A stretch of 64,000 nt of DNA. Source: Candidatus Eisenbacteria bacterium (GTDB lineage: Bacteria; Eisenbacteria; RBG-16-71-46). Where the stretch lies: positions 62,001-126,000 of the forward strand of contig JADLBL010000021.1 in NCBI GenBank assembly GCA_020847735.1, in the 5' to 3' direction. Below the pieces are notes generated by a model. The model made no database searches, was not told the DNA's origin, and saw only the letters and a list, made by a program, of their open reading frames with translations. This document shows positions 7,414 through 11,607 of this stretch, in pieces. A program made the translations under genes and the position numbers. How positions within the stretch are numbered: position 1 is the stretch's first letter; each line of letters begins with the position of its first letter.

Positions 7414-8841
7414 ATGAAGTCGCTCGCCGTTCGCCTGACCGCGCTGCTCGTCGCCCTCGTCACGATGGCGATGCTGGCCGGTGCGGCCTCCAGGTCCGCG
7501 AAGATCCTCGAGCCCGACAAGCTGGTCATCCTGTCCACGACCGACGTCAAGGGCAAGACCAGTCCCTGCGGCTGACACACGCCCAAAGGGGGCCTCGCCC
7601 GGCGGGCGAGTTTCGTTGACAGCATCGCGGTCCAGTACGGCCAGTATCTGCTCGTGGACAACGGCTTCTTCTTCCCCGAGGCCGAGGACTGGGAGCAGGA
7701 CGCCTGGTTCCTCATGGACGCCATGAAGCTCCTGCACACCGACGCCGTGAACGTGAGCGAGAAGGAGCTTCGCTACGGCCGCAGCTTCCTGCTCGCGAAC
7801 TGGAAGCGGTCGAAGCTGCCGCTGGTGTCCGCGAACCTGTGGGACAAGACCACCGGCAGGACGCTGGTGGACCCGTACGTGATCGTGAAGAAGGGCACGG
7901 TGACGGTCGGCATCTTCGGCGTGACCAGCGACAAGGTGGACCTCGGCATGTCGCGCGATTCGCTGAAGGTTTCCGACCCGACCGAGGCCGCGAAGCGCAC
8001 CGTCGCGGAGCTGCGCAAGAAGGGCGCGACGGTCGTGGTGCTGCTCTCGCAGCTGGGCAAGGTCGAGAGCGAGGATCTCGTCGCCACCGTGGACGGCATT
8101 GACGCGGTCATCGTCGGGCGCAACATCGCCGTGATGCCCAAGGGTCGGCTCATCAAGAACACCATCGCCTGCTACGGCGGCGAGCAGGGCCAGTACATCG
8201 GCCGGACGATCCTCACGCTCGACGCGCAGAAGAAGATGGTCAATGGCGACTGCGAGACCTTCCTGCTCGGTCCCGAAGTGGGCGAGAAGCCCGAGATCCT
8301 CGCGCTCGTCAAGAGCTTCGAGGACGCGTTCAACGACTTCCTGCGCAAGAAGGAGAAGGAAAAGCAGGTGGCGACCGACGCGGCCCGGCTCGAGGGCGGC
8401 GCGGAGACGGCGGTGGACCACTACGTCGGCGACCAGGTCTGCCAGCGCTGCCACCAGGCCGAGTACGACCAGTGGAAGACGACGCTGCACGCGAAGGCCT
8501 GGCAGACGCTCGTGGACGTGAAGAAGGACGCGGACACCGAATGCATCAAGTGCCACGTCGTCGGCTACCAGCAACCCGGCGGCTTCCGGACCGGCGACGA
8601 CGCGGCGAAGCTCGGCAACGTCCAGTGCGAGGTCTGCCACGGCATGGGCACGCAGCACGAGGCCTATCCCGCGCAGGCGCGAAAGATCACCGAGGCGACG
8701 TGCAAGCAGTGCCACACCACGGACAACAGCCCGACGTTCGACTTCGCGACCTACGAGCCGCACATCCTGCACCGCGTGCCGGCGGACCTGCCCAAGCTGC
8801 CGGACAATCCGAACAAGGCGAAGATGATGCAGGGCCACTGA
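7414..8841 (+). CDS. Periplasmic tetraheme cytochrome c with UshA-like N-domain; predicted selenoprotein (in-frame TGA = Sec54)
   Basis: 475 residues if TGA 7573-7575 is read as selenocysteine. ATG 7414 opens a signal peptide (MKSLAVRLTALLVALVTMAM). Next comes a metallophosphatase/5'-nucleotidase-like domain: ILSTTDVKGKTSPCG, then Sec54, then HTPKGGLARR, with NANLWD- and VGIFGVTS-type strands after it. Related cytochrome-linked domains carry PCGC followed by GGLARR, so the TGA sits exactly at the second Cys (CGC to CGU). The C-terminal third has four heme sites: CQRCH (343), CIKCH (377), CEVCH (405) and CKQCH (430). The frame is clean on both sides of the TGA. Stopping there would leave a 53-residue stub, and a restart at GTG 7654 would give a heme protein without an export signal. 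A SECIS-like hairpin follows. The alternative is a nonsense mutation or base error. It probably transfers electrons in the periplasm; the substrate is unknown. Confidence 0.8.
7573..7610 (+). promoter_or_regulatory. In-frame UGA and bacterial SECIS-like hairpin
   Basis: Directly after the UGA (7573-7575) the mRNA can form a perfect 7-bp stem, 7594-7600 with 7604-7610, capped by loop GGC (7601-7603). The loop begins 25 bases after the UGA. Bacterial selenocysteine insertion elements lie within the coding region just downstream of the UGA, with a G-containing apical loop roughly 16-37 bases away, so position and loop G fit. The three-base loop is at the small end; opening the top C-G pair would give a five-base loop. 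Confidence 0.6.
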
Positions 8842-9043: not shown

Positions 9044-10435
9044 GTGAGCAAGGTCCTCGACGGCGTCCAGTACTTCGAGTCCATCCTCGACACGGTCGGC
9101 GGCACGCCGCTGGTGCGGATCCGCGAAGTCGCGAAGGGCCTGCCCTGCCCGGTGCTCGGCAAGGTCGAGTTCTTCAACCCGGGCGGGAGCGTCAAGGATC
9201 GCATCGGCCTCGCCATGGTCGAGGACATGGAACGCCGCGGGCGGCTGAAGGCCGGCGGCACGATCGTCGAGTGCACCTCGGGCAACACCGGGCTGGGGCT
9301 CGCGATGGTCGCGGCCGTGAAGGGCTACCGGGCCGCGTTCTGCATGCCCGACAAGGTCTCCAGCGAGAAGGTGAATCTGCTCAAGGCCTTCGGCGCCGAG
9401 GTCTTCCTGAGCCCGACGGCGGTCGAGCCGTCGCACCCGGATTCGTACTACTCGGTCGCGCGGCGCATCGCCACCGAACGCCCGGGCGCGGTGCTGATGG
9501 ACCAGTACAACAACCCCGCCAACCCGGCTGCGCACTACGCCACGACCGGCCCCGAGTTGTGGAAGCAGACGGCCGGCCGGATCACCCATTTCGTCGCGGG
9601 CATGGGAACGGGCGGGACCATCAGCGGCACCGGCCGCTACCTCAAGGACCAGAACCCGAAGGTTCAGGTGATCGGCGCCGACCCGGTCGGCTCGATCCTC
9701 AAGCACTACAAGGAGACGGGCCAGATGAGCGAGGCCCGCACCTACAAGATCGAAGGCGTCGGCGAGGACTTCATTCCGGGGGCCCTCGATTTTTCGGTCG
9801 TGGACCGCGCCGTGCAATGCGACGACTGGAACGGGCTCAACACCGCGCGCCGCCTCGCCCGGGAGGACGCCATCTTCGTCGGCGGCTCCGCGGGCATGGC
9901 GACCTGGGTCGCGCTCGAAGTCGCGAAGGCGTGCGGGCCGAACGACCTCGTGGTCGTGCTCCTGCCGGACACGGGCGAGCGCTACCTGACGAAGGTGCAC
10001 AACGACGAGTGGATGCGCGACAACCACCTGCTCGACCTGTCGGCGACGCGCGTGGCCGGGCTGGTCTCGGGCAAGGCCTCGCGGGTGCGCCAGCTGATCT
10101 CGGTGGAATCGGGCGAGCCGCTGCGCCGGGCGCTGACGCTGATCGAGCAGCACGACGTGTCCCAGCTGCCGGTGATGCGCGGCGACGAGGTGGTCGGAAC
10201 GCTGGAGGAGGGCGAAGTGCTGCGCACCGCGCTCGCCAATCCCGGCCGGCTCGAGAAGCAGGTGGACGAGTTCATGGCCCCGCCGCTGCCGATCGTCGGC
10301 GGGGACGAGCCGGCCGAGGCGGTGACGAAGCTGCTCGCCTCGCGCAACGCCGCGGTGCTCGTGCGCCACGGCGGGACCGTGTCGGGCATCCTGACGCGCT
10401 TCGACATGCTGCAGTTCATCGCGGGAGGCGAGTGA
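9044..10435 (+). CDS. Cystathionine beta-synthase (PLP enzyme with C-terminal CBS domains)
   Basis: 463 residues from GTG 9044, which has GAGG upstream; an in-frame GTG-type extension to 8987 lacks conserved sequence. It condenses homocysteine and serine to cystathionine in the cytoplasm. The PLP Lys51 is in NPGGSVKDRIG, the substrate loop is TSGNTG, and the phosphate-binding loop is GMGTGGTISGTG. Residues about 335-463 carry a pair of CBS domains (DVSQLPVMRGDEVVGTLEEG, GGTVSGILTRFDML), which separate it from plain cysteine synthase. The stop overlaps the next start by one base (TGATG), giving an operon with the gamma-lyase. CBS domains suggest adenosyl-ligand regulation, an inference from family knowledge. 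Confidence 0.9.
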   Translation: MSKVLDGVQYFESILDTVGGTPLVRIREVAKGLPCPVLGKVEFFNPGGSVKDRIGLAMVEDMERRGRLKAGGTIVECTSGNTGLGLAMVAAVKGYRAAFCMPDKVSSEKVNLLKAFGAEVFLSPTAVEPSHPDSYYSVARRIATERPGAVLMDQYNNPANPAAHYATTGPELWKQTAGRITHFVAGMGTGGTISGTGRYLKDQNPKVQVIGADPVGSILKHYKETGQMSEARTYKIEGVGEDFIPGALDFSVVDRAVQCDDWNGLNTARRLAREDAIFVGGSAGMATWVALEVAKACGPNDLVVVLLPDTGERYLTKVHNDEWMRDNHLLDLSATRVAGLVSGKASRVRQLISVESGEPLRRALTLIEQHDVSQLPVMRGDEVVGTLEEGEVLRTALANPGRLEKQVDEFMAPPLPIVGGDEPAEAVTKLLASRNAAVLVRHGGTVSGILTRFDMLQFIAGGE

Positions 10436-11607
10436 TGGCGGGCGAGACGCTCGGTCCGGACGCGGGATTCGCGACCCGTGCGGTTCACGCGGGGCAGGAG
10501 CCGGACCTGGCGACGGGCGCGGTGATGACGCCGATCTACCAGACCTCCACGTACGCGCAGGAGTCGCTCGGTCACCACAAGGGCTTCGAGTACGCGCGCA
10601 CGCACAACCTGACCCGCTCGGCGCTGGAGAAGAACCTCGCGGCGCTCGAAGGCGGGCGGCACGGCTTGAGCTTCGCCTCCGGCCTCGCGGCGACGAACGT
10701 CGTCATGCAGACGCTCTCCGCCGGCGACCACGTCGTCTGCGGAAACAACACCTACGGCGGAACCTTCCGGCTTTTCGACAAGGTCTGGAAGCGGCACGGA
10801 CTCGAGTTCTCGTTCGTGGACTGCACCGATCCGGAGCGGGTGGAAGCCGCGTTCACCCCGCGCACGAAGCTCGTCTGGACCGAGACGCCGACGAACCCGC
10901 TGATGCAACTCGCGGACATCCGCGAGATCTCGGCGCGGGCGAAGCGCCGCGGTATCCGCACGCTCGTGGACAACACCTTCATGACGCCGTACTTCCAGCG
11001 GCCGCTCGAGCTGGGGGCGGACGTCGTCCTGCACTCGGTGACCAAGTATCTGAACGGCCACAGCGACATGGTCGGTGGGGCGCTGATCACCTCCGACGAC
11101 GATCTGGCCGCGAGCCTGCGCTTCCTGCAAAACGCCGCCGGGGCGGTGCCGGGGCCGATGGACTGCTTCCTGTGCCTGCGCGGAACCAAGACGCTGGCGG
11201 TCCGCATGCGGCAGCACCAGGCCAACGCGCTCGAACTCGCGGCCCTGCTCGAGCAGCATCCGAAGGTCTCGCGCGTGTACTACCCGGGGCTCGCCTCGCA
11301 TCCCCAGCACGCGCTGGCCCGCTCCCAGGCGTCCGGATTCGGCGGCATGATCTCGATCGTTCCCGGCGACGGCTCGCACGCGGCGGGCGAGGCGGTCTTC
11401 AACCGCTTCCGGCTCTTCACGCGCGCCGAGAGCCTGGGCGGCGTCGAGAGCCTGGTTTGCCACCCGGCCTCGATGACTCATGCCTCGGTGCCGCGGGAAA
11501 CGCGCCTTGCGCTGGGCCTGGTGGACGGCCTGCTCAGGCTTTCGGTCGGCATCGAGGACGTCGCCGATCTGAAGGCCGATCTGGTGCATGCGCTGCAAAT
11601 ATTGTGA
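10435..11607 (+). CDS. Cystathionine gamma-lyase / gamma-synthase (Cys/Met metabolism PLP enzyme)
   Basis: 390 residues, normal length for the trans-sulfuration PLP family. PLP Lys204 lies in SVTKYLNGHSD; the family's ETPTNPL and VDNTFMTPYFQRPLELGADVV segments are present. Because it is translationally coupled to cystathionine beta-synthase, gamma-lyase activity (cystathionine to cysteine, reverse transsulfuration) is the more likely function, although gamma-synthases share the same fold and motifs. ATG 10435 overlaps the upstream stop by one base. Confidence 0.9.
   Translation: MAGETLGPDAGFATRAVHAGQEPDLATGAVMTPIYQTSTYAQESLGHHKGFEYARTHNLTRSALEKNLAALEGGRHGLSFASGLAATNVVMQTLSAGDHVVCGNNTYGGTFRLFDKVWKRHGLEFSFVDCTDPERVEAAFTPRTKLVWTETPTNPLMQLADIREISARAKRRGIRTLVDNTFMTPYFQRPLELGADVVLHSVTKYLNGHSDMVGGALITSDDDLAASLRFLQNAAGAVPGPMDCFLCLRGTKTLAVRMRQHQANALELAALLEQHPKVSRVYYPGLASHPQHALARSQASGFGGMISIVPGDGSHAAGEAVFNRFRLFTRAESLGGVESLVCHPASMTHASVPRETRLALGLVDGLLRLSVGIEDVADLKADLVHALQIL

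Follow-up and report, generated by a model that had tools for sequence, protein, structure and literature searches.

The UshA-like gene and the selenocysteine machinery of its host

The window, a 64,000-nucleotide stretch of a contig from a Candidatus Eisenbacteria bacterium, contains a gene with an in-frame UGA that is followed closely by a short hairpin. The features considered here are listed below; "rows" denotes the homologous sequences in our alignments, which carry either a TGA (Sec rows) or a Cys codon (Cys rows) at the site.

7414..8841, plus strand: UshA-like selenoprotein gene, 475 amino acids with Sec54, ending at an ordinary TGA stop (translation, NF041198, Pfam, fold model)
7573..7575, plus strand: in-frame UGA, decoded as the selenocysteine of the motif PCGUH (read from the sequence; aligned with Cys, TGC or TGT, in 22 homologous rows of the phylum)
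7594..7600, plus strand: 5' arm of the predicted SECIS stem, CTCGCCC, codons Leu-Ala-Arg (sequence, RNAfold, covariation)
7601..7603, plus strand: apical loop GGC, 25 nt after the UGA (sequence, RNAfold; GG[C/A] in 46/46 distinct Sec rows)
7604..7610, plus strand: 3' arm of the predicted SECIS stem, GGGCGAG, codons Arg-Ala-Ser (sequence, RNAfold, covariation)
8440..8715, plus strand: four CxxCH haem motifs, CQRCH, CIKCH, CEVCH and CKQCH, in the C-terminal cytochrome region (translation; invariant in alignment A5; Pfam)

The gene product consists of a signal peptide (identified by eye), a degenerate 5'-nucleotidase-like domain and a tetraheme cytochrome c554-like tail. It matched the NCBIfam family NF041198, UshA-like (seleno)protein, with 282.5 bits, above the curated cut-off of 275, and its C-terminal region matched Pfam Cytochrome_C554 with 62.1 bits. 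A search with the structure model indicated that the predicted fold of the front part resembles 5'-nucleotidases such as CD73 and UshA; the model, with a mean pLDDT of 72.9 and low confidence at the Sec site, supports the nucleotidase-like fold only. The GNHE motif, the metal and catalytic motif of true nucleotidases, was not found in the alignments to 2z1a and 3jyf. Since the NHE of true nucleotidases is replaced by SEKE, a phosphatase activity of the product is doubtful. UshA-like proteins are listed as a known selenoprotein family with the motif CxU (COG0737) in tables of PMC13188914, PMC2398784 and PMC9312934. The gene in the window shares the PCGU motif, the nucleotidase-like domain and the haem tail with the NF041198 proteins, and we found no difference that would set it apart from an ordinary member. 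The adjoining region of the window (9044-11604) carries transsulfuration genes, namely a cystathionine beta-synthase-like gene (508.6 bits, slightly below the cut-off of 510.25) and a cystathionine gamma-synthase-like gene (512.1 bits against a cut-off of 513), and a cystathionine beta-synthase-like gene was also seen near the UshA-like gene at other loci of the phylum. These neighbours hint at sulfur metabolism.

The host genome contains the machinery expected to accompany a bacterial SECIS: tRNA-Sec (74.1 bits; SeC(tca) by ARAGORN), SelA (538.4 bits), SelB (334 bits, one match above the cut-off) and SelD (344.9 bits), the gene for the last lying directly upstream of tRNA-Sec. At an E-value of 1e-9, a search of the 47 genomes of the phylum gave no tRNA-Sec in eight, and seven of these eight are among the 43 genomes with Sec rows. 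When the eight genomes were searched more sensitively, the best match reached 47.9 bits, a strength typical of ordinary tRNAs. SelB is present in six of the eight, and in five of the seven with Sec rows; the likeliest reason for the missing tRNA-Sec is the draft state of the assemblies. One genome (G038) has tRNA-Sec, yet only a Cys row.

Under translation table 11 the reading frame ends at 7573, as it would if the TGA were a real stop, a sequencing error or the mark of a pseudogene. However, a TGA occupies the same position in 51 rows from 43 genomes with the frame open beyond it, 22 other rows have Cys there, and the frame is conserved on both sides, which leaves this reading a negligible chance. 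TGA is not a general sense codon either, because an ordinary TGA also serves as the stop of this same gene.

The hairpin in Sec and Cys homologues

The original prediction described a perfect 7-bp stem with a GGC loop, 25 bases from the UGA, and direct reading confirmed each of these details. The TGA (7573-7575) and the hairpin (7594-7610) are separated by 18 nt, and all seven pairs of the stem are Watson-Crick pairs. RNAfold predicted the hairpin, with -11.5 kcal/mol for the hairpin alone, and a comparison with Rfam gave no match worth naming at 7594-7610. For the 53-nt stretch containing the hairpin, the stability of this single sequence was not significant (z = -0.87; 36 of 200 shuffles were at least as stable). 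When the hairpin peptide was encoded at random with synonymous codons according to local codon usage, about 7% of 20,000 draws gave at least seven Watson-Crick pairs around a triloop. These two results mean that the single sequence proves little and that the comparison among homologues has to decide. The second also lends some weight to the idea that the hairpin is a by-product of coding, in which a GC-rich sequence encoding GGLARRA would be prone to fold without any RNA function, an idea with which the conservation of the peptide in Sec and Cys members alike is consistent.

A protein search for the UshA-like gene found matches in 46 of the 47 genomes of the phylum. In all, 73 rows span the site; 51 of them (46 distinct), from 43 of the 47 genomes, have TGA, and 22 have Cys codons. 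Before counting, we removed L032 and L100, duplicates of L080 and L034, as well as L045-L060, which come from the same genomes as the G loci; the genes of G035 and G045 are cut at contig ends and gave no row. A wider search with closer alignment yielded 16 loci, all of Candidatus Eisenbacteria and mostly from the same genomes, which were kept out of the counts.

The core CCC-GG[C/A]-GGG was found in all 51 Sec rows (46/46 distinct) but in none of the 22 Cys rows; from coding alone, about 4% per row would be expected. At least six contiguous pairs flank the triloop in 45 of the 46 distinct Sec rows, and the spacing from UGA to loop is 25 or 28 nt in 51/51. In the alignment of the 46 distinct Sec rows (A3), 96.9% of the cells are paired and the covariation score of 0.272 exceeds the shuffled mean of 0.131, with none of 500 shuffles scoring as high and slid registers pairing at 50% or less. 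The compensation is illustrated by column pair 9/21, in which the third base of the Leu (or Val, Phe) codon faces that of the Ala codon: GC in 23 rows, CG in 17, GU in 3, UA in 2 and UG in 1, with no row unpaired. In the Cys control alignment (A4, 22 rows), on the other hand, only 64.9% of the cells are paired and covariation is not above that of the shuffles. The first Arg codon is CGG in 46/46 distinct Sec rows versus 4 of the 22 Cys rows; CGG makes up 30% of the Arg codons in six genes of the window. In a tree of 109 rows, from which the Sec/Cys pairs were taken, the hairpin core goes with Sec in all seven independent pairs on well-supported branches (sign test, p = 0.0156). The Leu/Ala third-base swap on its own gave three independent pairs on such branches, consistent but too few for significance.

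There are a few exceptions on either side. Among the 46 distinct Sec rows, L069, in which Ala is changed to Thr, is the sole one where the fourth pair counted down from the loop is mismatched (A-C). A contiguous hairpin was scored in 50 Sec rows, and in three of these it is weaker than the -7.5 kcal/mol of the published model. Three of the 22 Cys rows (L016, L019 and L071) have at least six pairs around a triloop, which is GCC in two of them. The Cys paralogue L087 (G024:C45:118-1265, minus strand) retains the stem CTGTCTC-GGC-GAGCCAG, equivalent to the SECIS with one mismatch, and looks like a decaying relic left after a change from Sec to Cys. At L016, L019, L022 and L080, UshA-like genes occur in tandem, a Sec copy being followed directly by a Cys copy.

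The absence of the core from 22/22 Cys rows with the same or nearly the same peptide, together with covariation confined to the Sec rows and the seven concordant pairs, in our reading refutes the explanation by coding constraints, to which we assign only a very slim probability. In the sequences compared, conservation and compensation of the hairpin are confined to genes with UGA at the site; homologues with a Cys codon lack its core, as expected of a SECIS. The covariance analysis of TGA-containing homologues that had been proposed as a check could have exposed a stem without conservation or compensation; instead, the stem proved conserved and compensated, and the earlier identification of the hairpin as a bacterial SECIS is strongly supported. 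Thus, the hairpin at 7594-7610 is almost certainly the SECIS of the UshA-like selenoprotein gene.

The triloop, the published SECIS model and SelB recognition

According to the legend of Figure 2 in PMC13188914, the bSECIS model allows a loop of 3-9 nt, a stem of 4-16 bp, a spacing of 16-37 nt and an energy of at most -7.5 kcal/mol, with G in the first two positions of the loop and mostly the pattern N1-G-[G/U]-N-N2, in which N1 and N2 are paired. The hairpin lies within all of these limits (loop of 3 nt, stem of 7 bp, -11.5 kcal/mol, 25 nt from UGA to loop). It shares with the consensus in that legend the GG at the start of the loop and the arrangement N1-G-G-N-N2 with N1-N2 paired, but its loop is at the lower limit of length and has C or A as the third base. 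The triloop also lacks the U often found in the loop of bSECIS elements.

The E. coli SECIS carries a bulged U, whereas the corresponding U in the Eisenbacteria hairpin can pair. As aligned, the U of stem column 8 has A or G as its partner in 46/46 Sec rows, and the best score was obtained with a bulged U in 12 of 50 Eisenbacteria rows. Like the E. coli SECIS, for which PMC3834832 gives a 17-nt form, ggttgcaggtctgcacc, the hairpin has a short stem and a loop opened by GG, and lies downstream of the UGA within the coding frame; the E. coli loop, folded by hand, is GGUC in place of the GG[C/A] triloop.

We extended the comparison beyond the phylum. In a wider search, NF041198 matches were found in 155 of 385 genomes at an E-value of 1e-30. 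From one batch of 20 loci 17 were used, since L220, L224 and L225 gave no row with the motif. We read 28 Sec rows outside the phylum; the GG[C/A] triloop is present in 15 of them, and the other 13 carry a loop of the GGUCU or GGACU type at about 18 nt from the UGA. The UshA-like family therefore contains two SECIS layouts, which are largely split by clade and require two changes among the Sec rows in the tree of 109 rows, a quick tree with several open forks. Two rows with the GGUCU layout, L209 and L212, are nested among triloop rows with moderate support, possibly a reversal of the SECIS register.

The host has a second selenoprotein gene, encoding the formate dehydrogenase alpha subunit (fdhA, G000:C1:240180-242048, L231), with an in-frame TGA and a 7-bp stem bearing a 5-nt GGUCU loop at 18 nt from it. 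Some other fdhA genes of Eisenbacteria (L256/L264 and L261) have a GGUCU loop with a bulged U. As there is one SelB match above the cut-off in the host, the same SelB presumably reads both the GGC and the GGUCU loops. The last stretch of the host SelB, RKYAVPLLEHTDRLGWTVRVGDER, aligns with the end of two SelB chains, 4zu9_A and 5lzb_z, of which 5lzb_z is E. coli SelB; the aligned C-terminal stretch is presumably the SECIS-binding domain.

The original prediction regarded the triloop as unusual and raised the possibility of a divergent SelB-mRNA recognition in this lineage. A lineage-specific recognition code would be in line with the triloop in every Sec row of the phylum that we examined and with the paired U at column 8, unlike the bulged U of E. 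coli. Nevertheless, the same triloop occurs in 15 of the 28 Sec rows outside the phylum, the loop fits the consensus in the legend of PMC13188914, the fdhA gene of the host carries a GGUCU loop, and the end of the host SelB aligns with that of E. coli. We therefore consider such a code very unlikely; a loop of three bases is within the published range, and no data here call for a new recognition code.

A search with the covariance model (R1) returned strong matches that, where they could be placed, are UshA-like genes. We read 20 weaker R1 loci (17 from other genomes and three from the host's own) and 22 further matches in the host's own genome for an in-frame TGA; nine reading frames in eight loci were open enough, none of them with a convincing protein context, and we do not claim further SECIS elements of the GG[C/A] triloop kind beyond the UshA-like genes.

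Proposed decoding and implications

Following the established bacterial pathway, the C-terminal winged-helix domain of SelB, loaded with GTP and Sec-tRNA-Sec, would bind the hairpin by recognizing the two G's of the loop on the short G-C stem, and SelB would deliver selenocysteine to the ribosome paused at the UGA at 7573. Translation would then proceed through the hairpin. Since the same bases also encode GGLARRAS, the stem would be kept by synonymous codon choice, with CGG and CGG/AGG for Arg-Arg, GCC for Ala and matched third bases in the Leu and Ala codons. The predicted product is a multihaem protein that is exported and carries Sec in its PCGUH motif, and our guess is that it is probably a redox or sulfur-handling enzyme.

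The element is a SECIS of the known bacterial type, conserved across the phylum and located in a selenoprotein family that is likewise known; it is real but ordinary. A literature search for triloop SECIS elements and for selenocysteine in Eisenbacteria found nothing on this element and no paper linking Eisenbacteria with selenocysteine, and in the same limited search we met no published account of the two-layout pattern or of the Sec/Cys contrast. The two-layout pattern and the clean contrast may be the only parts that a specialist has not seen. As a tentative extension, the hairpins with GG[C/A] triloops could form a sub-class of bacterial SECIS that is distinct, in wide use and independent of a U in the loop or a bulged U, and that, in the UshA-like family, swapped places with a GGUCU hairpin about 6-10 nt upstream, so that the SECIS register slipped with the protein motif unchanged.

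The analysis confirms the presence of a selenoprotein gene, which would be truncated by standard annotation, and the UshA-like homologues provide a clean natural experiment in which the RNA signal accompanies a nearly identical peptide in some genes and is missing in others. Should the observation of two layouts hold, a single SelB reads both three-base and five-base loops, and a SECIS can move inside a conserved coding region.
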